This document shows positions 7,826-23,305 of a DNA stretch of 39,102 nt, one piece after another. The notes beneath the pieces are model-generated. The model had not been told where the DNA came from. It did no database searches and saw nothing but the letters and a program-made list of their open reading frames with translations. This stretch comes from Methanobacteriota archaeon (GTDB taxonomy: Archaea; Thermoplasmatota; Thermoplasmata; RBG-16-68-12). Location of the stretch: NCBI GenBank assembly GCA_020029475.1, contig JAIBJG010000007.1, positions 1 through 39,102 of the forward strand, given 5' to 3'. The translations under genes were made by a program, and so were the position numbers. The first letter of the stretch is position 1. Every line of letters starts with the position of its first letter.

Positions 7826-7922
7826 CCGGGGGCGGTAAGGCGGGGCGTCCGAAAGCCTTTCGACGTCCGCGGGACCGCCGACTCGCCGTTCTCACGCGGC
7901 GGAACCACGCCGAAACCATGAT

Positions 7923-7958
7923 GGAGGGGCAATCCTCCGGCGACGGGGACCAGGGAGG
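7923..7958 (+). promoter_or_regulatory. possible competing pairings around the Shine-Dalgarno of the surface-protein gene
   Basis: GGAGG (7923-7927), CCTCC (7934-7938) and the Shine-Dalgarno-like GGGAGG (7953-7958) lie in order before ATG 7966. The middle element can pair with either neighbour, so the leader could in principle switch between a free and a masked ribosome site. The stems are only 5 bp and may be chance in GC-rich DNA. Confidence 0.2.
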
Positions 7959-7965
7959 ACCCACG

Positions 7966-10900
7966 ATGCGCCCTCAGGAACCGGATCGGATGCGCCTGCG
8001 AACTCGATGTCTCGTCGCCTCGTTCGTGGCCGTCGCGATCGTGATCACGGTCCTCGCCTCCCCGCCCGCCGCTCGGGCGTCGAACGGCGTCCTGAACCCG
8101 CCCCACAGCGATGCGGGACTCGACATGAACGGGAACGCCCTGTGGGACTACCTCGTCATCTCCGTCGGGGCGACGGTCTCGACGCCCGGCGGGTTCTTCC
8201 TCTTCCTCCAGCTCTACGACGCGGCCGGGACGACCCTCATCACCCAGAGCCAGAAGCTCGTGGACCTCCCCGGGGGAACGAGCGTGACGGCGGTCCGCCT
8301 GGAGGGCTCGGCCATCTGGAGGGCCGGCATCGACGGCCCGTACCGGGCGCAGATCGCCCTCGTGAACGACACCTTCTCCCTGCAAGGGATGGGGTTCCAC
8401 GCGACGGCGGCGTACCTGTCGATCGACTTCGAACCCACCCCCGCCCGCCTCGCCCCGCCCCATTCGGACGCGGGCGTGGACATGGACGGGGACTCGCGGT
8501 TCGACTACCTCTCCGTTGACGTCCAGGTGGACGTCGCGACCGCGGGAACGTACGCGGTGCAGGGCCTGCTCTGGGACTCCCCGCCGACGACCCTGATCCG
8601 CATCCAGACGAACACGACGTATCTCGCGCCGGGGACGCACACGGTCCTCCTCCGGTTCCCCGGGGCCGCGATCCGGGCCGCGGGTCTGAACGGGCCGTAC
8701 GAGGTTACTCTAGACCTCTTCGGCTCCACCGGCCCCCAGCTCGACACGGGCACCCACGTCACCTCGACGTACTTCCTGAGCGACTTCGATCCCCTCGCCG
8801 CGGCCTTCACGAGCCCCCACGAAAGCTTCGTCGTGGACCTCGACAGGGATGGGTTCTGGGACGACCTCGTCGTGAACGCGATCGTGACCGCGACGGAGCC
8901 GGGGTTCTACCGGGTCGATGCGGGGATCTCGTCGATCCCCGCCTTCGCGAACGTCCGCACGTACCTCCCTGGAGGGACCCAGGTCGTCCAACTCGACTTC
9001 CTCGGCGTGGACATCTTCACCTCCGGCGTCGACGGGCCGTACACCGTGGACCTGACCCTCTGGGACGAACACGCCCGGAACCTCGACGTCGACATCCACA
9101 CGACGGGGACGTACTTCGCGATCGACTTTGAACCTTCCCCGCCCGCCCGGTGGGTCCCTCCGTTCCTCGACTCCGTGCGCGACCTGCAGGGGGACGGGTT
9201 CTGGGACGACCTCGTCGTGAACACGAGCGTCCTCGCGGACCGCCATGGCGGGTACAGCTGGACGATCGAGCTCTGGGACTCCGCGATGACGACGTTCATC
9301 GGCACGGCCGACGGGCAGTTCGAACTGTCCTCCGGAACGAACCCCGCAAGCCTGGCCTTCCCCGGGCTCCAGATCTGGAACTCTGGGGTCGACGGGCCCT
9401 ACGGCGTGAACCTCGTCCTGTACGAACCGGAGGGCCGGCAGGTCGATGTCCAGACGTTCACGACTGCCCCGTACCTCGCGACGGACTTCCAGGGTCCTGC
9501 CGGACGCCTCACGCCGCCGTACTTCGACCTCGGTGTGGACCGGAACGGGGACACGATTCTCGACGTGATCGCGGTCGATGTGCCGATCACGGTGACCCGC
9601 GGATCCACGTTCATCCTCACCGGGATCATGGTCGACGGCTCCTTCGGTCTCGTCGGGTTCGACCAGCGGTTCGTCGACCTGCAGCCGGGGCTCTCGACGG
9701 TCCGGTTGAACTTCTCCGCTGCGGACGCGTTCCGGGGCGGGCCGGACGGCGCGTTCTTCGGGATTCTCCAGCTCCAAACGATCTCTGCCGGGACGACCCT
9801 CTTCGTCGACGGGGACACGTTCATGACCCGGAACTACACGGGCGCCCGGTTCGACCAAGGGCCCCCCGTGCGCCTCACGGGCCGGGCCACCGCAGCCGGG
9901 TCCGGCGCCCCCCTCGAGGACATCGGGATCATCGCGTGGTCCCCCGCGACCCGGCTCCAGCGGAGCGCGAACACGGACGTGTCCGGGTCCTACGAGATGA
10001 CCCTGCCACCCGGGGACTACTACGTCTTCGCGGACGGGGCCTCCCGCAACGCGCAGGGGGTCTTCCAGACCGTGACCTCGGACCGCTCTCTCAACTTCGT
10101 CCTCGACCTTCCCGCGCCCAGCGTCGTCACCGGGAGCGTCTCGTTCAGCGACTGGAGCAACGCGACGTTCGTGGGGGACTTCACGTTCGGCGCGGACGCG
10201 GTGTTCACGCGGTTCCAGTTCGACGTGGTGTTCGGGAACGGGGACGGGATCGCGAGCCAGGCGGAGCTCGACCGTCTGTTCGAGTTCGGCACGCCCCCGT
10301 CCCTCCCGCTCACGACCCGGGACACGTTCACCGTGGACGGGCGGTCGTACGTCCGTGCGAATGGCACGGAGACGTTCACGCTCTCCGGGGCCGGCCCGAT
10401 CACCTCGAGCGCGCCCCTCACGGGCCGGGTGACGGGGGACTACGCAGCGTCCTCCGCGGTCCCGTCGATGACCGTGCACGTCGGGCGGTTCCTCACGGAG
10501 TTCGATACCGTGAGCTCGACCCAGACATTCACCCTAGGATGGCCCTCGAACTTCGCGATGACCTCCTTCGACCCCGTCGCCGGGGTCGCGATCACCGGCG
10601 TTGGTGGACCGTCCGCAGGGATCGACCCCGCCTCGGACCCGAACCCCCGGGACTTCGTCCGAGAGGTGTGGGTGAACACGACGATCGAGACGACGGACAC
10701 GACCCCGCCCCTGGTGACGGGAGCGGCCCTGGACGCCGCCTCGACCCTCCGATCCCGGCCCGGACCCACGGTGACCGTGACCGCCACCGCGAGCGACGCG
10801 GGCCGTGGGGACTGGCCGATCCAGGGAGCGAACTTCACCCGCGGCGCCCGGAACTGGGCCTCCGCGGTCCCGATGAGCGCGACGGACGGGTCCTTCGACG

Positions 10901-11925
10901 GCGTCACGGAAGCCGTGACGGGCGCCCTCGCCACCGCGACCCTCGCGGACGGGACGTATTCCATCTGCGTGTACGCCCGGGACATCGTGACGAACAACGA
11001 CACGGCGGGGAACTGCGCGAGCCTGACGATCGACAGCACCCCGCCGACGGCCTCGACCGTGCGGGTCGACGGAGCGACGATGAAGACCGTCGTCGTCGGC
11101 GCGCAGGTCACCCTGACCGCCACCGTCAGCGACGCATCCACCGGCAACGGGGACGTCTCAGCGGCGAACTACACTCGTGGGGCCGCGAACTGGGCGAGCT
11201 CCAGGGCGATGAACGCCGGGGACGGCGCGTTCGATTCCTCCACGGAGTCCGTCACCGCCGCCGTGGACACGACGGGCTGGACCGCGGGCACGTACGACCT
11301 CTGTGTGTACGCCGTGGACGACCTCGGGAACGGCGACCCGTCCGCCGCCGACTGCGCGCAACTCGTCGTCCTCGACCGGGACGTCACCGCCCCAGTCGTG
11401 ACCGGGGCGCGCGCCCTTCCGAATCCCGCGAACCTCTCCGAGGCGGTGAACATCTCCGCGGTCGTGACGGACGACATCGGCGTCAACGCCGTGTACATCG
11501 AGATCTTCGACGGGGGCGGGGCGAGCGTCGGAAACGTCACCGCCGCCTACGACCCGGCAAGCGGCCGATACTCCGTGGAACGGACGCTCCCGGCGCCGGG
11601 GACGTACACGTATCGCGTATCGGCCCGAGACGCGGAAGGAAACTGGGCCACCACGACGGGGACGTTCTCGATCCGAACGCCGCCGTCGGACGGGGCTCCC
11701 CTCGGGGGGCTCTGGTGGTTAATCCTCGTCGTGATCGCCGTCGCTGCCGCAATCGTCGTGTTCCTCTTGTGGACGCGAAGGCGGCGCCCCGCCAGGATGG
11801 GAGCCATGCCCCCCGCCGCTCCCCCGATGACGGGGATGCCCGCGGAGTCCCCCCCGGAAGCGCCCATGGAGATCCCGCCGGAGATCGACGAGATCGACAA
11901 GCCCCTACCCCCGCCTCCCACGTGA
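7966..11925 (+). CDS. large repeat-rich surface protein, C-terminally membrane-anchored
   Basis: A 1319-residue secreted protein. A signal peptide occupies about residues 1-40 (CLVASFVAVAIVITVLA core). Five tandem repeats of about 118 residues follow (DNA starts near 8097, 8455, 8812, 9158 and 9512). Each opens with a D-x-[ND]-x-[DN] loop such as DMDGDSRFD or DLDRDGFWD and has an internal [DG]GPY motif. Next comes a carboxypeptidase-regulatory-like domain (from about 9880). Two repeats carrying the motif ANFTRGARNWAS / ANYTRGAANWAS (about 10700-11370) and an Ig-like domain follow. A single helix with a RRRR stop-transfer and a Pro-rich cytoplasmic tail ends the protein. The loops suggest calcium binding. 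ATG 7966 was chosen for GGGAGG 7 nt upstream; ATGs at 7918 and 7921 are possible. Confidence 0.85.
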   Translation: MRPQEPDRMRLRTRCLVASFVAVAIVITVLASPPAARASNGVLNPPHSDAGLDMNGNALWDYLVISVGATVSTPGGFFLFLQLYDAAGTTLITQSQKLVDLPGGTSVTAVRLEGSAIWRAGIDGPYRAQIALVNDTFSLQGMGFHATAAYLSIDFEPTPARLAPPHSDAGVDMDGDSRFDYLSVDVQVDVATAGTYAVQGLLWDSPPTTLIRIQTNTTYLAPGTHTVLLRFPGAAIRAAGLNGPYEVTLDLFGSTGPQLDTGTHVTSTYFLSDFDPLAAAFTSPHESFVVDLDRDGFWDDLVVNAIVTATEPGFYRVDAGISSIPAFANVRTYLPGGTQVVQLDFLGVDIFTSGVDGPYTVDLTLWDEHARNLDVDIHTTGTYFAIDFEPSPPARWVPPFLDSVRDLQGDGFWDDLVVNTSVLADRHGGYSWTIELWDSAMTTFIGTADGQFELSSGTNPASLAFPGLQIWNSGVDGPYGVNLVLYEPEGRQVDVQTFTTAPYLATDFQGPAGRLTPPYFDLGVDRNGDTILDVIAVDVPITVTRGSTFILTGIMVDGSFGLVGFDQRFVDLQPGLSTVRLNFSAADAFRGGPDGAFFGILQLQTISAGTTLFVDGDTFMTRNYTGARFDQGPPVRLTGRATAAGSGAPLEDIGIIAWSPATRLQRSANTDVSGSYEMTLPPGDYYVFADGASRNAQGVFQTVTSDRSLNFVLDLPAPSVVTGSVSFSDWSNATFVGDFTFGADAVFTRFQFDVVFGNGDGIASQAELDRLFEFGTPPSLPLTTRDTFTVDGRSYVRANGTETFTLSGAGPITSSAPLTGRVTGDYAASSAVPSMTVHVGRFLTEFDTVSSTQTFTLGWPSNFAMTSFDPVAGVAITGVGGPSAGIDPASDPNPRDFVREVWVNTTIETTDTTPPLVTGAALDAASTLRSRPGPTVTVTATASDAGRGDWPIQGANFTRGARNWASAVPMSATDGSFDGVTEAVTGALATATLADGTYSICVYARDIVTNNDTAGNCASLTIDSTPPTASTVRVDGATMKTVVVGAQVTLTATVSDASTGNGDVSAANYTRGAANWASSRAMNAGDGAFDSSTESVTAAVDTTGWTAGTYDLCVYAVDDLGNGDPSAADCAQLVVLDRDVTAPVVTGARALPNPANLSEAVNISAVVTDDIGVNAVYIEIFDGGGASVGNVTAAYDPASGRYSVERTLPAPGTYTYRVSARDAEGNWATTTGTFSIRTPPSDGAPLGGLWWLILVVIAVAAAIVVFLLWTRRRRPARMGAMPPAAPPMTGMPAESPPEAPMEIPPEIDEIDKPLPPPPT

Positions 11926-13928: not shown

Positions 13929-15968
13929 TCACGCGACGTACCCGCATCGCAGGCAGCGGAACCGGCCGTTCTCGTATGCCGCCTCGACCCATGCGCACCG
14001 CGGGCAGCGGTATTCCACGGGGGACGTGCCGTACAGGGGAGGGCGCCGCGCCGGCGCGTATCCCGGGGGGAGCGCGGCGACCGGGGGACCCGCCACCGGT
14101 CCCGGGGGCGCACCCTGCGGAGCGTACGGAGGGTATTGCGCCGAGGGGCCGTCCGCGCCTCCCGGACCCGACGCCGCGATGCGAACCCGGGTCGCGCTCG
14201 GGCGGGCCACGTCCTGGAAGAACCGGACGGCATACAGGAAATAGTACGCGAGGAAGCCCGAGCCAGGGATGAGGAGGAGGAAGAACGCGACGCCCAGCGC
14301 GACCCCGAGGGGGGAGTCGAAGCCGGCGAGGTACGCCGTCGCGATGAAGACGTCCGTGGCGAAGTGGAAGATGATCGCGGCGTGGAGCCCGTGCCGGAGG
14401 AACAGGTATCCCATCGCGAGCCCCGCGAGGCCTGCCGGGAGGACCTTCCAGATTCCGTACCCGGGGGCGTGGGCGAGCCCGAAGACGGCGGAACTCGCTC
14501 CGAGGAAGAGGAGGGCGGGGAGGAGGATCGGAAGGGGCGTCCGCCGGCTCATCCCCCCGCCGAGCAGGTACCGGAAGGATCCGAGGACGTACCGGCCGCT
14601 CCTGGATCCCGCGGGGACCCGGCCCCTCGAGATCCCGGAGCCCCGAAGGGCGAGGGAGCCGAGCATCATGGGGACGCCGATCATCAGGACGCGGAAGATC
14701 AGCTCCTCGTACACGGGCGCGTTCAGGAGGGAGAAGATCAGATACCATTCGGGGATCTCGGAGAAGAACGATGGCTCTGGCGGGTTCGTGAGAATCCCGA
14801 CCGCGATGCTGAGGGCGGTGATCGCCATGAACGTCTGCATGATCGCCACGGTCGCGCTCCGCGACCGGAGCTTCGCGGGGATCCGCTCGGAACCCACGCG
14901 GATCGTCTCCCACAGGGGTCGATAGTCCCGCACGACGAGCACGGCGAGGGAGGCGACGGTCACCGCCACGATCGCCGCGGTCCAGAGGTAGAACGCGACG
15001 GGGTCCTGCGTGTAGTAGAGGAGGATTGGGACCGGCGCCACGATCGCGACGTCCACGAACGCGGACGTCCGCCAGGAGAGTCGGGCGTTGTCGATGCCGA
15101 CGACCGAGGGCGTCCCCGGCGCGCCTGCACGGTTCGACGCAATCGCGGCGATCTTCACGTAGTACGTCCCTGCGCCGGGGATGGACGAGGACACTTCGAC
15201 CGCGTCGATTACCTCCCCCGTGGGCAGGTACACGGATGTTGCAGAGGTCCAGTTCGTCGGTGCGGCGAGGGTCACGTTCCACACGTCGCCGACGGGCCGT
15301 CCGTTCGGACTGAGAGGGGGCGGGGTGCCCGCGGACGGGCTCACGTACACGGCGATCGTCAGGTTCCCGAGAAGGTCCGAGACCTGGAAGACCCGGTAGT
15401 CCAAGCGGACCGCCGCGAGATACGGAGAGGACCCGCTCGCCTGGAACCTCTGGGACCAGTACCCGCTCGCGATCGCGTTCGACCGGCCCTCGAGGCGGAC
15501 CTCTCCGTAGGCATCGGGATGGCCTCCCGCGGGGTTCACACTCCCGTTCGCCCCGAGCGCGGTCCATGGGGAGAACGTCCAGACCCCGGGGGAGTCGAAC
15601 CCCGGGTCCGAGGTCTCGCCCTGCCGGATCTGCTCGATCCCCGCGGTGATCGGGACGAGGGCCCCGAACATCCCCGCGGTCGCGATCGCGAGGATCACGA
15701 GGAAGGCGATCAGGGAGAACAGCCACGCAACGTTCAGGAGCGTGTACCCGACGGAGGGCCCCGGAGCGGGGGGCCGGATCCACGCACCCCATGCAGGAAG
15801 TCCGCACGCGGGGCAGAACCGCCCTGCGTACAGGGTCCCGCACCGGCTGCACTGCGCGGTCGGGATTGCGGCGACGGCCGCGGACGGAGACGGAGATGCG
15901 CCGACGGGCGTCCCGCAATTCGGGCAGAAGCGTCCCTCGAATGTCGTGCCGCACCGGGGGCAGGCCAT
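13929..15968 (-). CDS. CPBP-family membrane protease with zinc ribbons and an extracellular beta-rich domain
   Basis: A 679-residue protein with an unusual layout. Two N-terminal zinc ribbons (CPRCG/CPNCG and CSRCG/CPACG, residues 2-60) precede a membrane helix near 78-104. An extracellular domain follows (about 121-301) that resembles one in the giant pilin-like protein at 19265. Several helices then carry the CPBP (CAAX protease/Abi) motifs: YEELIFR, FGLAHAPGYG and HFATD. A Pro/Gly-rich linker leads to a C-terminal ribbon (CPRCA/CLRCG). The glutamate and histidine motifs indicate an intramembrane metalloprotease of the Rce1 type; the substrate is unknown. ATG 15968 fits a TATA-like ACTTAAAGG (15997-16005); a GTG at 15998 lies at that box. 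Confidence 0.85.
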   Translation of the reverse strand: MACPRCGTTFEGRFCPNCGTPVGASPSPSAAVAAIPTAQCSRCGTLYAGRFCPACGLPAWGAWIRPPAPGPSVGYTLLNVAWLFSLIAFLVILAIATAGMFGALVPITAGIEQIRQGETSDPGFDSPGVWTFSPWTALGANGSVNPAGGHPDAYGEVRLEGRSNAIASGYWSQRFQASGSSPYLAAVRLDYRVFQVSDLLGNLTIAVYVSPSAGTPPPLSPNGRPVGDVWNVTLAAPTNWTSATSVYLPTGEVIDAVEVSSSIPGAGTYYVKIAAIASNRAGAPGTPSVVGIDNARLSWRTSAFVDVAIVAPVPILLYYTQDPVAFYLWTAAIVAVTVASLAVLVVRDYRPLWETIRVGSERIPAKLRSRSATVAIMQTFMAITALSIAVGILTNPPEPSFFSEIPEWYLIFSLLNAPVYEELIFRVLMIGVPMMLGSLALRGSGISRGRVPAGSRSGRYVLGSFRYLLGGGMSRRTPLPILLPALLFLGASSAVFGLAHAPGYGIWKVLPAGLAGLAMGYLFLRHGLHAAIIFHFATDVFIATAYLAGFDSPLGVALGVAFFLLLIPGSGFLAYYFLYAVRFFQDVARPSATRVRIAASGPGGADGPSAQYPPYAPQGAPPGPVAGPPVAALPPGYAPARRPPLYGTSPVEYRCPRCAWVEAAYENGRFRCLRCGYVA

Positions 15969-16064
15969 CGGAGCGCCGAGCAAGCCCCGTGGAGCCACTT
16001 AAAGGTCGCGCTCACGACCTTCGAAAGGGATCGTCGGACGGGAGGGCTCGTCCCCGGAGGAACC

Positions 16065-17028: not shown

Positions 17029-17038
17029 AAAGGGAGTG

Positions 17039-18001
17039 ATGCTTCCAGACGGGGAGCTCGGAGACCAGAAGGTCCTCGCCGCGCTCCTGGGGATCTCGGA
17101 GATGGTCGCGGGGCTCACGGACCTCGAGGAGGTCCTCGGCGCCATCGTCCGGATCACGCCGCAGCTCGTCGGCGTGGACCGGTGCGCGATCCTCCTGCTC
17201 GACCCCCACAGACGGGAGTTCCGGACCGCGCAGGTCTTCGGCCCGGACCGGGAGCGGAACGCGACCTTCCAGAGACTCGTCCTCCGGGAGGAGGAAGTCC
17301 GGGCGCTTGCGCACCGGATCCTGGAGCAGAAGCTACCCGCCCTCGTCCGGGCGGGGTCCCTCCCGCCGTCGATGGCGGACACCCTCGGGATGCGGACCGT
17401 CCTCATCGTCCCCCTCGTGTGCCGGGACGAGGTCCTCGGGATCATGACCCTGGACCACACCCAGGGCCTGCGGCTCTTCACCTCGAAGGAGATCAACGTC
17501 GTGATGGGCGTCGCGCAGCAGGCGGCGATCGCGATCGAGAACTTCCGGCTGAAGTCCATTGCCGCACGGACGCGGGAGACCCTCCGGGTCGCGAGCGAGA
17601 TCCTCGCGGCCGGGCTCATCACCCTGACGGGGGAGTACCGGATTCTGTCCCTCGACCCCATGGCGGAGTCCCTCCTCCAGTGGACCACGTCGGAGGTCCA
17701 AGGGAAGGGGTTCTCGCAGACGTTCACGGTCACGGACCGCGAGGGGGTCCGGCTCCCCGACGTCGCGGAGGCCGCGGACCTCGTGCTCCGATCCGTCGGT
17801 CGGAGGGACCCTCCCGTCCTGTACTTCCGGAGGAAGGACGGCAGCCGCGTCCTGTGCGAGGTCCGCGCCGCGCCCGTCCGGGACGACCTGGGGGAGGTCG
17901 TCGAGATCGTGTGCGTACTCCGGCGGACGACCGGCGACGGCGAGGTCGAGGGGCCCGTCGGGACCCCGGTGGCCCGTCGCGTCCTCAACGCGGCCCCGTG
18001 A
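17039..18001 (+). CDS. GAF-PAS sensor protein without a recognisable output domain
   Basis: A 320-residue cytosolic protein. A GAF domain spans about residues 10-175 (helix GISEMVAGLTDLEEVLGAIV, strand DRCAILLLDPHRREF, and GIMTLDH near the end). A PAS-like domain follows from about 185 to 300 (ILSLDPMAESLLQW; LYFRRKDGSRVLCEVRAAPV). There is no histidine kinase, GGDEF or DNA-binding domain, so it must signal by protein contact if at all. The start is ATG 17039, immediately after an in-frame GTG at 17036; both are close to leaderless. It ends one base before the convergent HTH-ATPase gene, which may be its partner by context only. Confidence 0.82.
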   Translation: MLPDGELGDQKVLAALLGISEMVAGLTDLEEVLGAIVRITPQLVGVDRCAILLLDPHRREFRTAQVFGPDRERNATFQRLVLREEEVRALAHRILEQKLPALVRAGSLPPSMADTLGMRTVLIVPLVCRDEVLGIMTLDHTQGLRLFTSKEINVVMGVAQQAAIAIENFRLKSIAARTRETLRVASEILAAGLITLTGEYRILSLDPMAESLLQWTTSEVQGKGFSQTFTVTDREGVRLPDVAEAADLVLRSVGRRDPPVLYFRRKDGSRVLCEVRAAPVRDDLGEVVEIVCVLRRTTGDGEVEGPVGTPVARRVLNAAP

Positions 18002-18002
18002 A

Positions 18003-19088
18003 CTATCGCGTCGCGGCCCGGGAGAACAGGAGGAGCCGGATCTCCGCGAGGGTGAACCGGGAGACCTCCCGGAGCCTTGCGGCGTTTCCGTCCCGGATCA
18101 GCGTGAGGTACAGCGGGCACCCCTTCGTGAGGAGGTACACCTGCCGGAGGGACTCCGCACCGATCGCGGGGTTCCCCAGGAGCTGCCGGGTCCCCTCCGG
18201 GCTCAGCCCCTTCAGTCGGATCTCTCGCACGGTCCCCTTCCGGACCTCCGCGGGGCCGTAGAACCGGCAGTACGAGGGGGTCGCCTCCTGCGCGAGGACG
18301 AGGAGTTTCGCCCCCGGACTCGAGGCGATGGTCGCGAGGAGCGCGGAGACCGCATCGACGACGCCCTCCGACACCTCTCCGTATCCGTCGAGGACGATGA
18401 GGGGCTTCAGGGCGGGGATGTCCCGCTCAAGCCCGTCCGGGTTGCCGGACCCGCCGAGGCTCCGCAGCGAGGACGCGATGTCGCGCCGGAGACCCGCGGG
18501 ATCGTCGGGGGCGACATCGACCCAGGTGGAGGGCCGCCGCGTTCCCGCGGTGAACGCGCGGGCGAGCGCCGTCTTCCCCATGCCCCGGGATCCGTACACG
18601 ACGAAGGCGGGGACTGGACCTTTGAGCCATTCCGCGATCGCCGTGAGGTCGGACTCGCGCTCGATCAGGTCCGACTCCGGAACCGTCAACGCGACTTGGC
18701 GGGGGCGGTAGACGCCCGCGTCGTCGAGGCCCGAGACGATCTCCCCCGGGGCCACGCGAAGTTCCGCGGCGAGGGCGCCGATCGCGATCCGCCGGTCCCC
18801 GAACCGCACCTCCTCGGACTCGAGCCCTCCGAGGAGCTCCCGCGCGCGGCGGATCCCTGCCTCCGTGAGCGCGTATACGCGGACCTTGCGACCCCGGCCC
18901 CGCAGACGTCCCTCGCGGACCTCCGCGGAACCGTCTTCGACGAGCCGCTTCACCGCACGGGGCACGTGGCTCCGGCGCAATCCCGTGCCCACGGAGATCC
19001 CCTCCTGTGTCGCCTCTTGCACCGCGTCCTTCGCGTTCCACATGGGGAGGAGGTGGACGAGGACCCGCTCCGCCGCGGTCAGGAGCAC
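18003..19088 (-). CDS. winged-helix AAA/STAND-like ATPase, predicted transcription regulator
   Basis: A 361-residue protein with an N-terminal winged helix (about residues 1-90; recognition region GLRRSHVPRAVKRLVEDG and wing RGRGRKVRVYALTEAG). A P-loop ATPase follows with Walker A GSRGMGKT (166-173) and Walker B PLIVLDGYGE (about 228-237). LPLYLTLI-like helical sequence at the end resembles archaeal MNS/STAND ATPases. The layout suggests an ATP-dependent DNA-binding switch. The start is GTG 19088, with a TATA-like TTGATATGAAAT 20-35 nt upstream. It is divergent from the giant pilin-like gene, and two inverted repeats in the shared gap are candidate sites for it. Confidence 0.8.
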   Translation of the reverse strand: MLLTAAERVLVHLLPMWNAKDAVQEATQEGISVGTGLRRSHVPRAVKRLVEDGSAEVREGRLRGRGRKVRVYALTEAGIRRARELLGGLESEEVRFGDRRIAIGALAAELRVAPGEIVSGLDDAGVYRPRQVALTVPESDLIERESDLTAIAEWLKGPVPAFVVYGSRGMGKTALARAFTAGTRRPSTWVDVAPDDPAGLRRDIASSLRSLGGSGNPDGLERDIPALKPLIVLDGYGEVSEGVVDAVSALLATIASSPGAKLLVLAQEATPSYCRFYGPAEVRKGTVREIRLKGLSPEGTRQLLGNPAIGAESLRQVYLLTKGCPLYLTLIRDGNAARLREVSRFTLAEIRLLLFSRAATR

Positions 19089-19113
19089 GTGGGTCCGAAC
19101 CCGCGGATTTCAT

Positions 19114-19147
19114 ATCAACAATTCGGTCCGAGCGCCGCGTTGTTGAT
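19114..19147. promoter_or_regulatory. inverted repeat ATCAACAA-N18-TTGTTGAT in the divergent promoter
   Basis: The arms at 19114-19121 and 19140-19147 are perfect 8-bp reverse complements. The left arm overlaps the TATA-like region of the HTH-ATPase gene, so binding there could give autoregulation as well as control of the pilin-like gene. Confidence 0.5.
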
Positions 19148-19152
19148 TCTCA

Positions 19153-19173
19153 GCGCGCGAAAAGTTCGCGCGC
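19153..19173. promoter_or_regulatory. inverted repeat GCGCGCGAA-AAG-TTCGCGCGC
   Basis: Perfect 9-bp arms (19153-19161 and 19165-19173) with a 3-nt spacer, 5 bp from the preceding inverted repeat and about 30 bp upstream of the TATA box of the giant pilin-like gene. It is an operator candidate; as RNA it would be a strong hairpin but lies before the predicted start of that transcript. Confidence 0.5.
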
Positions 19174-19204
19174 CGCGGACGCATTGGTAATGACCACGAT
19201 ACCG

Positions 19205-19212
19205 TTATATAT
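19205..19212 (+). promoter_or_regulatory. TATA box for the giant pilin-like gene
   Basis: TTATATAT is one of the strongest TATA matches in the window. It lies 53 nt before ATG 19265, leaving a leader of about 25-30 nt that carries the Shine-Dalgarno-like GGAATGGAG. Confidence 0.65.
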
Positions 19213-19264
19213 CGACCTGCCGCGTAGGCGGACCGTTTCCCCCAAGGAATGGAGTGCTGCCCCC

Positions 19265-22200
19265 ATGAAGCCCATTCGACGCTACCTGCGCGAGGATGAC
19301 CGCGGCGTGTCCGAGGTCATCGGAACGATCCTGATCCTCGGGATGACGGTCTCCCTCTTCGCGGCGATCATCATCTGGGTCACCTCAATCCCGACGCCGA
19401 CGACGAACGTCCGCCTCGAGCTCGACGGCGCGTTGATCCCGCTGAAGGACACGAACGGGAACTGGGCGGGAGTGAACGTCACGATCACGCACCGCGGGGG
19501 CGAGAGCCTCGGCTTCCCGGAAACCCGCGTGTACCTGACGATCACGAAGGCGAGCGGCACCTCCCAGACGGAGGTCCTGCGGACGAAGGGGACGATCAAC
19601 TGGGGCCCGAACCTCGGGTCCCCCTACGGCCTCATCGACGGGACGGACAGCACATGGAACATCAACGAGCGGTGGTCGATCGCGAACAAGACCGTGGACC
19701 CGACGGACAAGATCCGTGCGACCGTCGTCGACATCTCGCGGAGCGTGGTCCTGTGGCAGGAGGACATCCTCGGGCCCCAGGGCAGTCACCCGCCCCTGTT
19801 CCTGGAGAAGTGGGCGGACGGCGACCCCGAGACGACGACGATCGAGATCCCGAAGACCGGTTCGCCGTTCACGATCTACGCGAGGGTCACGGACGATGAC
19901 GGGAACCTGCAGAGCGTGAACGCGACCCTGACGATCTTCTACGGGACGCCGGACCCGTGCTCCGTCCCCCAGCCGATGTCGGACTCCGGGACGAACGGGG
20001 ACGTCGTCTCCGGCGACGGGATCTGGACCCTGAAGCGGGAGTGCATGGTCCCGACGAACCTCACGTGGGACGGGTCCATCGTCCTGTTCAGCGCGACGGA
20101 CGGCACGTTCGTGACGACGTCCCGGATGACCCTGCGGGTCGTGTTCGGGACCTCCCCGGGCGGCGGTGGCGGGGGCGGGAACACCTCCGGCCGGCCTCCG
20201 AACCTGCGGTACAACGGCCTCCAGGGATACAACCTGTTCAACGCGAGCCAGTGGGACAAGGCCGAGTTCGCGGCGAAGGAGACCCGGACGTTCAAGGCGA
20301 ACGAGCGGGTCGTCGTCGTCGTCGGGTCCTATCTCCTGAAGGACGCGGTGAGCCGGGACCAGTACTTGATGACGGACCCCTTCGGCGGCGGGAACTCGCC
20401 CACGTCGGTCGTGTACGGGACGAACAAGATCCCGAACCCCGCGACGAAGCCCTCGAACCTCCAGGCGTTCCGGTTCTACAAGCAGGTGAACGGGTACAAC
20501 GTCTTCATCTACCGCTTCGACATCAACAACGTCTCCAGCACCGGGATCAACTTCTACCGGAACCCGGTCCACCCGCCGTACTACTGGTTCGCGCGGTACT
20601 CCATGAGCATCGACATGATCGACTCCCAGGGGACGCGCTTCAACACGACGGACGCGATGAACATCACGGACAACGACGGGTTCATGCGGCAGTTCCCCGC
20701 GATCGAGACGTACAGCGACTCCGCGTACACCCAGAAGACGAACACGTTCCTTTCCACGGACCGTGCGTACGTCTCGGTCCAGATGTTCAGCGTCGACGCG
20801 ACGACGGACCAGGTCACGTTCGGGAACGTCCAGATCCGGGACTTCCTGGGCGGTGTGCAGGTCTTCAAGTCGTTCGTGAACGGCCGGGACGCGATCCCGC
20901 CGCTGTGCCCGGTCACGGGCGCCTGCACGGGCCGCGCCCTCGGCGTCGACGGCGCCACGATCACGTACCGGTTCATGGTGAACCTGAGCCTCACGGACGG
21001 AGATCCGTGGGTGGAGGGGTCCCAGAACTACGCGATGTCGATCTCGTACGTCGACGACGCGGATGAGACGTACACCGCGCTCTCCGCCCAGCTCCTGATC
21101 CGCGCCGCATTGTTCCGGCTCGACATCGCGGGCGGGAACCTCGACACGACCGGGCCCGCGTGGGGCACCCACGACTACGGGTACTACTACGAGAACCTGA
21201 ACGGGGTCGACAAGTGGCGGAAGATCCGCTTCGAGTACTGCGGGCTCCCCGGCGCCGGCCAGTGCAAGAACGCGGAGACCCATGCGGTCGCGTTCCTGGA
21301 CGGCGAGAACGACGGGGACCTGGACATCGCGGACTCCATCAAGCTCGACGCCAACAGCGCCGAGATCAACTACTACCGCCGGCAGGTCGACTTCGACGGC
21401 AACGTGATCTTCACGAAGTTCAACCTGGTCGCGCTGAGCGGTGCGAGCATCTACTGCAACGACATCGCGATCGGGGACCTCGACGGGAACTTCCTCCCCG
21501 AGATCGTTTGCGGGATCACGGACGGCCGCCTCGTCTACTTCAAGAACGACGGGACGTGGACGACGGGAAGCCCCTCCCCGTTCATCACGATCGATTCCAC
21601 CCGTGTCCAGCAGATCTGGGGGGTCACGATCGGGGACTTCGACCGGGACGGGGACCGGGACATCGCCGTCGCCCGCACAGGCGGGACCGTGACGTACTAC
21701 CTGAACCTGAACGGCCAGGGCTCCTTCTCCACCGGCGCGATCACGGACCGCTGGTATGCGGAGGCGGAGGTCACGAACACGGGAACGCACAACCCGGACT
21801 TCCTCGCGACGATCGCAAGCGACAACAACGATGAGGCGGTCCAGGAGGGGCTGAAGACGGAGCCCGCCCAGACCGGGACGACCCAGAACCCGGGCTTCAA
21901 CACCTCCTCGACCTCCTGGACGTACGCGGACTGGGAGAACGGAGGGTCGGCGAGCGGGAACTGGCAGAACAGCGGCGGGAACCCGGACGGCCTCGTGTAC
22001 GTGCAGACGAATTTCCTCGCGAGCCAGACCGTGAGCGGGCTCTGGCGCCAGAGCTTCACGACCACCGGCTCCACCCCGTACACGGCGACGGTCGAGTTCG
22101 ACCGGAAGGTCTCGCAGATCCAGGCAGGGGCCACGACGAGGGTGTTCGTGTTCGTCGACGCGGGCTCTGGCAACCCGACGGTCGGGACGGAGATCACGAC

Positions 22201-23305
22201 GCCGTTCACGCACACGACGACGACGGGATGGATCCAGAGCGGCGCGATTTCGGTACCGTCGAACAAGCTTCCGGCCCCGGGGACGTACCACCTGAAGATC
22301 GCGGCACGGACGACGAACCCGGGCTCGGGCGGGACGAACACGATCGTCCAGTTCGACAACATCTACCTGAACTGGTCGAGCACGGGTGGGCAGGCGAGCG
22401 AGCTCGAGCACTACTGGCGGATGCAGCCGATGCCGAACCGGCCCCTGTCGACGTACGCGCTCCGGTTCGAGTCCCACCGGTCCTCGCCCACGGACGGAGA
22501 CTTCTTCGCGATCGCGTACTCGATCGATGTCTCGGGCGCGGACCCGACGACGGGCACGTACACGACGATCCTCTGGGTGAACACGACGAGCGACGTCGCC
22601 CAGAACTACAACTTCCCCGTGAACCTGCAGAACAAAATCGTGTGGATCCGGGCGATCGACATCGACCATCACGTCGGGAACACGACCCTCGACACCCTGT
22701 ACCTGGACCAGATGTACATCGAGGTCACGACCGCGGCAATCCAGCCGGGCTCCGTGGTCACGCTGCCCTCGACACCGGCCGACGCGAAGGCGATCGACTC
22801 CGACGACCAGGACGCCGACGGGTACGTCGACGTCGTGGTCGGGACCTCGAACGGGAAGGTGTACAAGGCCATCGGGTTCGCCGGCGGTCTCCAGACCCCG
22901 GGCGGCATCTTCTACACGGTCACCGGGAACCCGGCGATCACGGGGATCAAGCTCGCGAACATCACCGCGTCGGGCACCGGACTCGAGATCGTGGTGTCCT
23001 ACGGGACGAACGTCCGCGTGATCTCCGGGAACGGGAACTCCGGGAGCTCGATCTTCGTCCTCGCCCCCGCGACGAGCGTGACGATCAACGCCCTCGCGGC
23101 GGGGGACGTCGATGGTGACGGGGACGACGACATCGTCGTCGCGACCGCGAACGCGGGCCCCGCCCTCGTGTACTACCGGAACCTCGGCGGGGCGGGCACG
23201 ATCTGGCAGAACTACAACATCGAGCCGCTGCCCGGAGGCACGACGATCACGATCCTCGACATCGACCTCGGCGACGGGAACAAGTCTCTCTACCTCGGAC
23301 GCTAG
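19265..23305 (+). CDS. giant pilin-like surface protein with FG-GAP repeats
   Basis: A 1346-residue protein. The N-terminus REDDRGVSEVIGTILILG, continuing through a 21-residue hydrophobic stretch, is the archaeal type IV pilin (Pilin_N) signal, cut before or near V15 by a class III peptidase. Beyond it lie a beta-rich domain (to about 300), a Gly linker near 299-305 and a large unrecognised region (about 310-660). FG-GAP/VCBS-like repeats occupy about 675-825 (GDLDGNFLPEI, GDFDRDGDRDI). A jelly-roll-like domain at about 875-1038 is shared with the CPBP protease at 13929. More FG-GAP units (DSDDQDADGYVDV, GDVDGDGDDDI) run to the end. Most pilins have 100-250 residues, so this may be a membrane-tethered adhesin using a pilin anchor. 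The stop codon overlaps that of the convergent gene. Confidence 0.85.
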   Translation: MKPIRRYLREDDRGVSEVIGTILILGMTVSLFAAIIIWVTSIPTPTTNVRLELDGALIPLKDTNGNWAGVNVTITHRGGESLGFPETRVYLTITKASGTSQTEVLRTKGTINWGPNLGSPYGLIDGTDSTWNINERWSIANKTVDPTDKIRATVVDISRSVVLWQEDILGPQGSHPPLFLEKWADGDPETTTIEIPKTGSPFTIYARVTDDDGNLQSVNATLTIFYGTPDPCSVPQPMSDSGTNGDVVSGDGIWTLKRECMVPTNLTWDGSIVLFSATDGTFVTTSRMTLRVVFGTSPGGGGGGGNTSGRPPNLRYNGLQGYNLFNASQWDKAEFAAKETRTFKANERVVVVVGSYLLKDAVSRDQYLMTDPFGGGNSPTSVVYGTNKIPNPATKPSNLQAFRFYKQVNGYNVFIYRFDINNVSSTGINFYRNPVHPPYYWFARYSMSIDMIDSQGTRFNTTDAMNITDNDGFMRQFPAIETYSDSAYTQKTNTFLSTDRAYVSVQMFSVDATTDQVTFGNVQIRDFLGGVQVFKSFVNGRDAIPPLCPVTGACTGRALGVDGATITYRFMVNLSLTDGDPWVEGSQNYAMSISYVDDADETYTALSAQLLIRAALFRLDIAGGNLDTTGPAWGTHDYGYYYENLNGVDKWRKIRFEYCGLPGAGQCKNAETHAVAFLDGENDGDLDIADSIKLDANSAEINYYRRQVDFDGNVIFTKFNLVALSGASIYCNDIAIGDLDGNFLPEIVCGITDGRLVYFKNDGTWTTGSPSPFITIDSTRVQQIWGVTIGDFDRDGDRDIAVARTGGTVTYYLNLNGQGSFSTGAITDRWYAEAEVTNTGTHNPDFLATIASDNNDEAVQEGLKTEPAQTGTTQNPGFNTSSTSWTYADWENGGSASGNWQNSGGNPDGLVYVQTNFLASQTVSGLWRQSFTTTGSTPYTATVEFDRKVSQIQAGATTRVFVFVDAGSGNPTVGTEITTPFTHTTTTGWIQSGAISVPSNKLPAPGTYHLKIAARTTNPGSGGTNTIVQFDNIYLNWSSTGGQASELEHYWRMQPMPNRPLSTYALRFESHRSSPTDGDFFAIAYSIDVSGADPTTGTYTTILWVNTTSDVAQNYNFPVNLQNKIVWIRAIDIDHHVGNTTLDTLYLDQMYIEVTTAAIQPGSVVTLPSTPADAKAIDSDDQDADGYVDVVVGTSNGKVYKAIGFAGGLQTPGGIFYTVTGNPAITGIKLANITASGTGLEIVVSYGTNVRVISGNGNSGSSIFVLAPATSVTINALAAGDVDGDGDDDIVVATANAGPALVYYRNLGGAGTIWQNYNIEPLPGGTTITILDIDLGDGNKSLYLGR

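Follow-up and report, generated by a model that had tools for sequence, protein, structure and literature searches.

Binding sites are known for few archaeal activators, and sets of regulator, site and target that can be recognised in the sequence itself are very rare across families as diverged as those considered here. Among the closest described systems is EarA, which PMC10665913 presents as the euryarchaeal activator of the archaellum (fla/arl) promoter in Methanococcus and Pyrococcus; the EarA motif is short and precedes the BRE by a constant distance of about 9 nt, a placement that is read there as TFB recruitment. Regulators of the ArnR type act on the type IV pilus-like structures of Sulfolobus, according to PMC6396743. 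A third point of reference is provided by the STAND regulators MalT and the archaeal PH0952.

The locus described here was found in a window of 39,102 nucleotides, by which we mean the whole stretch of DNA that was analysed. It resembles EarA, as portrayed in PMC10665913, in that the presumptive target is a type IV filament gene preceded by a short motif upstream of the BRE at a fixed spacing, and it resembles ArnR, as described in PMC6396743, in pairing a predicted transcription regulator with a type IV pilus-like structure. However, the EarA site is TACATA-like and often repeated, whereas the motif found here is a GGTA/TACC dyad, and the two proteins are likened by the position of their sites; furthermore, the present regulator has an ATPase domain and is divergent to its presumptive target, which is a giant FG-GAP pilin and not an archaellin operon. 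ArnR-type proteins are membrane-bound, one-component regulators without an ATPase, unlike the window regulator, which carries one. With MalT and PH0952 the regulator shares ATPase profile matches and a GxP-like motif; unlike them, it is a protein of 361 amino acids without C-terminal sensor repeats, its HTH is N-terminal, and the P-loop lysine is replaced in families f8, f24, f12 and f17. Among the papers listed by searches of open-licence PMC literature, none describes the gene pair or the site, which is weak evidence of novelty, and a term search of PMC9038741 returned no pilus text. The hosts are soil archaea, mostly uncultured and known mainly from metagenomes.

The divergent regulator and pilin genes

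The regulator gene occupies positions 18003..19088 on the minus strand (GTG start at 19088) and the gene for a giant type IV pilin-like surface protein of 1346 aa occupies 19265..23305 on the plus strand (ATG start at 19265), the two start codons being separated by a 176-nt gap (19089-19264). The original prediction had described an HTH-ATPase divergent to a giant pilin; both the names and the arrangement hold, and the arrangement is kept across the order, f8 and f24. The regulator consists of an N-terminal winged helix (wHTH) followed by a short STAND-type ATPase (ATPase_2/AAA_16-like). Taken alone, the window protein stays under the Pfam cut-offs in its ATPase part. Among 26 regulator orthologues, matches at E<=0.01 were obtained to AAA_22 in all 26, to ATPase_2 in 25 and to AAA_16 in 23, and a profile of these 26 sequences matched the solved structures of PH0952 (6mfv, 1e-11) and MalT (8bob, 0.0019); the protein alignment excluded L014, L022, L023, L025, L028 and L031. 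Profile comparison places the regulator among the P-loop ATPases, with relatives in ATPase_2/AAA_16 and among STAND proteins of known structure. It ends ~35 residues past the motif GCPLYL, which we take to be GxP-like, and a protein of 361 residues has no room for a C-terminal sensor superstructure (TPR, WD40 etc.); the only frames long enough for such a sensor are paralogues of about 850-1100 aa.

An AlphaFold model of the whole regulator, based on three closely related sequences, had a mean pLDDT of 56 and was unreliable in the ATPase part, and only its wHTH was used. Residues 1-90 of this AF2 model (pLDDT mostly 70-90) form three helices and a two-strand wing. MarR and PadR proteins were among the best Foldseek matches to the wHTH model, none of them at E<=0.001, and the weak Pfam matches in the same region were to PadR/TrmB/HTH_Crp_2. 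Within the recognition helix, basic and polar residues are invariant. The Walker A lysine is intact in the window regulator and in all rows shown for the order; T, A or S takes its place in all 10 rows of f8 and all four of f24, and the regulator rows of f12 and f17 carry replacements too, the substitutes over the four families being T, A, S or another residue. The lysine-less regulators of f8 and f24 are those at L078, L085, L159-L168, L171 and L172, where the pair and the site are still kept.

The N-terminus of the pilin comprises a class III signal (RG/VSEVIGTILIL) and Pilin_N, the archaellin/pilin N-terminal domain, with scores that pass the cut-off for both PF07790 (7e-10) and TIGR02537 (6.5e-06). 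Four FG-GAP_3 stretches are carried by the protein, and its full-length homologues measure about 1000-1360 aa. In the host genome, T2SSF was matched twice above the cut-off and A24 once below threshold; the three matches lie on contig C111, away from the locus. A CAAX protease/zinc-ribbon protein (13929-15998) and residues ~869-1039 of the pilin apparently have a domain of ~170-190 residues in common, at ~30-36% identity in tblastn comparisons between relatives. Elsewhere in the window (7918-11925), a second giant protein of 1335 aa, probably exported, contains Ig-like domains.

A search of 37 genomes of the order, at a threshold of E<=1e-30, detected regulator orthologues in 32. A pilin-type gene is divergent to the regulator in 31 of these 32, the arrangement in G019 having been pieced together from two contigs, and the remaining locus (G012) ends at a contig edge; in G010, G013 and G024, 0.9-1.8 kb of DNA is inserted between the two genes. 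Outside the order, the same divergent arrangement was seen at all loci examined in f8 (10/10) and f24 (4/4), and six genomes of f9, f12, f17, f19 and f21 encode a distant regulator without a giant divergent pilin. Regulator identity between families is only 31-50%. Since genes flanking the locus are common to relatives (DNA polymerase small subunit, CAAX protease-like, HTH_3 and tRNA endonuclease), the locus looks old and vertically inherited. The regulator and the giant pilin are probably regulator and target.

Convergent to the regulator lies a gene for a GAF-PAS protein (17036..18001, plus strand, 321 aa), on which the idea of a sensory locus had partly been based. The convergent orientation is as described, but the gene is an inconstant neighbour: it adjoins the regulator in f1, f4 and f5, the loci examined in f2, f3 and f8 gave no match to it, and G026 and G007 have retained it in the absence of the regulator. 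A role as constant sensory partner was rejected on these grounds.

Inverted repeats and the dyad before the pilin TATA box

Two perfect inverted repeats lie 5 nt apart between the start codons, as originally reported. IR1 (ATCAACAA-N18-TTGTTGAT) has arms at 19114-19121 and 19140-19147 (8/8, spacer 18), and IR2 (GCGCGCGAA-AAG-TTCGCGCGC) has arms at 19153-19161 and 19165-19173 (9/9, spacer 3). In an alignment with relatives, the left arm of IR1 coincides with the TATA region of their regulators, which bears out the reported overlap with the regulator promoter, and the right arm of IR1 overlaps the motif GATTCTCA; between the end of IR2 and the pilin TTATATA there are 31 nt, in agreement with the distance of ~30 bp given earlier. 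Among 2000 dinucleotide shuffles of the 176-nt gap, scored for perfect inverted repeats with a spacer <=20, an 8-bp repeat arose in 146, a 9-bp repeat in 38 and both in one. In the 39-kb window there are 40 axes whose arms measure 8 bp or more, and such a pair of repeats was present in 6 of 779 tiles (176 nt, every 50 nt). Because of these shuffle and tile counts, we regard the pair as uncommon but not exceptional in a GC-rich window, and either repeat alone as only mildly unusual.

Comparison with related genomes tells against the repeats. The four arms were found in 2, 1, 1 and 1 of 31 homologous promoter regions, and a search of the host genome for further copies returned the IR1 pattern, with any 18-nt spacer, a single time. 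Neither IR1 nor IR2 is present in any of 28 other intergenic regions of the order (L005-L033 without L022), species of the same genus included: L006 retains just the left arm of IR1, the one arm to recur there, and L005 has neither repeat. IR2 was seen in no relative examined. That the two repeats are operators, as their perfection, their adjacency, their place between the promoters and their joint appearance in a single shuffle might suggest, is hardly credible when relatives that keep the gene pair do not keep them, and they were set aside as operators on conservation grounds. Judged by this comparison, IR1 and IR2 are mostly incidental to the host genome, IR1 merely sharing positions with the core promoter of the regulator and with a motif conserved at family level. 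The original prediction of a regulator-target pair controlled by these repeats is therefore retained in part: a dedicated regulator of the giant pilin is probable, but the candidate control site is a different dyad.

The family-level motif is GATTCTCA (TGAGAATC on the regulator strand; 19145..19152, minus strand). Its GATTCTC portion adjoins the regulator in 11 of 16 f1 loci, even where the pilin has moved 1 kb off, and the motif is a candidate site for the regulator's own promoter. At L013, L017 and L071, which have insertions of 0.9-1.8 kb, the GGTAA site stays with the pilin, and at L013 and L017 GATTCTC stays with the regulator.

The dyad that had been missed, GGTAATGACC (consensus GGTAANKACC), lies at 19186..19195 on the plus strand, 12 bases downstream of IR2 and nine bases before the pilin TATA box TTATATA (19205..19211, plus strand); it is a candidate operator or activator site and, in the genomes compared, is conserved far more strongly than IR1 or IR2. 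Its position would correspond to about -49 to -40. From the TATA box, transcription of the pilin is predicted to start near 19233. Of 31 promoters of the gene pair, 29 contain GGTAANNACC without a mismatch, and the other two differ from it by one letter (GGTAACGAGC in G003 and GGTATTGACC in G051). These promoters, 29 from the order and two from f8, represent six families (f1-f5 and f8); the count drops L022, which has 5 nt of flank, and L002 and L003, which duplicate L006 and L005, and for L009, L013 and L017 the region beside the displaced pilin was used. A TATA box of the form TTWWATA is present in all 31 promoters, and its distance from the dyad is 9 nt in every one of them; the distance from dyad to regulator ranges from 64 to 185 nt, or exceeds 900 nt after insertions. 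Positions 1-4, 8 and 10 of the dyad are invariant, and position 7 is T in 22 of the 31, nearly all of which are perfect GGTA-NN-TACC. When other patterns of the same shape were taken from the window gap, the next best was the TATA box itself (10/31), and the best non-TATA pattern (8/31) overlaps the dyad. The element that is deeply conserved with the gene pair, at a fixed spacing, is also rare genome-wide: dyad and TATA box occur together once in the host genome, and a reversed-pattern control gave 0 matches. This rarity bears on the proposal that the dyad, which adjoins the BRE region at a fixed spacing, is merely an extended BRE-type core element of strong promoters. Such an element would be expected at many promoters, whereas this one is found once or a few times per genome, and the site is itself a dyad (GGTA-NN-TACC); we consider the proposal quite improbable.

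Occurrence of the dyad and its association with the regulator

Across 400 genomes of the class, the strict site followed by a TATA box was matched 78 times in 65 genomes, and a backward-read control gave three matches in three genomes. Of the 78 matches, 69 were examined, nine f8 copies being left out. A pilin-type signal follows in 58, a figure that includes L153 and L158, which fall outside the automated pilin pattern and were assigned to pilins by reading the sequence; a contig end interrupts two matches, L154 and L157, and nine do not precede pilins. Within the order, all 41 strict copies precede a pilin. The short dyad at its fixed spacing is a hallmark of pilin promoters in the order and in f8 and f24. 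In genus g2, the same site is present at a second, unlinked pilin (about 520-560 aa). At L087-L091, L104 and L105, the gene that adjoins this second pilin in back-to-back orientation encodes a very large exported protein (TCDQVGGVITGDWTI...) rather than the regulator. Among the nine non-pilin cases are exported or membrane proteins, five of them in f20 and two in f19; such copies are a hint that other families may have a wider regulon of surface proteins. Loci at which GGTAANNACC and a TATA box were recorded before exported non-pilin proteins are L037, L038, L094, L095, L097, L098 and L101 in f20, and L155 and L156 in f19.

In the order, the site is present in all 32 genomes that have the regulator and missing from four of the five that lack it; two of these four (G006, G021) merely end at a contig edge, so that independent cases in the order are few, and the Fisher test of this association takes no account of how closely the genomes are related. 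A clean evolutionary contrast is offered by G026 (94% complete), in which the pilin is kept and regulator and site are both lost: the giant pilin is intact but moved, no regulator match was obtained at E<=1e-30, and the place expected for the site holds only GATAATCCCG, with 5 of the 8 fixed letters. In G007, where the GAF-PAS gene and the pilin are on one contig, the regulator is missing between them and the site remains; the pilin frame is disrupted about 156 codons from its start. In f24, the short regulator is found in all four genomes with the site, and in all seven site-less genomes the regulator matches listed are only long paralogues or a 431-aa frame. Site-bearing pilins without a linked regulator are present in the stretches of f12 and f19 examined, and eight genomes of these two families (G042, G080, G113, G049, G090, G233, G323 and G317) have the short regulator without a strict site.

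Both kinds of exception in f12 and f19 would be explained if the dyad were an activator or operator site for pilin and other surface genes that is bound by an unlinked regulator or by an alternative TFB, the HTH-ATPase being a neighbour with a different function. The copies before exported non-pilin proteins in f20 and f19 point the same way. G007, which has the site with no regulator found, we count against binding by the linked protein. Against another factor stand the divergent linkage retained in the order, f8 and f24, the concerted loss in G026 and the co-occurrence in f24, and we judge this explanation unlikely, though by no means negligible. Residue R39 of the recognition helix was considered as a marker of the site; it fitted across families and failed within f19, where V takes its place in genomes with and without the site alike.

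A proposed mode of pilin control

On balance, we favour with moderate confidence a model, read from the sequences, in which the wHTH-ATPase binds the dyad, recruits TFB/TBP and switches on one giant pilin-like adhesin. The intergenic region would be a divergent promoter pair, in which the regulator would bind GGTAANKACC, probably as a dimer, directly upstream of the BRE, an element placed here by position only. Once bound, it would help TFB/TBP to assemble at the pilin promoter, so that one dedicated regulator would serve one giant pilin-like adhesin and, in g2, also the second, unlinked pilin. We infer that this regulator is the binder, that binding is dimeric and that the effect is activation rather than repression; the activator model is suggested by analogy, because the dyad lies directly upstream of the BRE with a fixed spacing to the TATA box, as with activators that recruit TFB/TBP, of which EarA (PMC10665913) is the nearest example. 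If the model is correct, the dyad connects a STAND-type ATPase with the control of a surface adhesin in a manner that is specific and open to testing.

Divergent, autoregulated repressor-target pairs are common, and the HTH-ATPase might instead repress the pilin through the dyad until a ligand or nucleotide exchange releases it; the host's family does have an intact P-loop. However, the site is located upstream of the BRE at a fixed spacing and not over the TATA box or the start site, and the intact pilin of G026, without regulator and site, is compatible with activation or repression. We regard repression as distinctly unlikely. As for the activator that we favour, the intact P-loop of the host's family would permit control by nucleotide; such control is not constant across families, the Walker A lysine being replaced in f8, f24, f12 and f17. 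A tentative extension, possible rather than probable, is that a sensor-less STAND ATPase has turned into a dedicated activator with a single target, the giant pilin-like adhesin, in several families, that it is a plain DNA-binding scaffold in the lysine-less lineages, and that the operator has remained frozen and has spread to surface proteins of f19 and f20.

One of the distant regulators, that of G039 (f9), is divergent to a short pilin. At this locus (L077), the TATA box of the short pilin is preceded by another perfect dyad, TTCGTCA-AA-TGACGAA, which may be a further operator used by this family of regulators.
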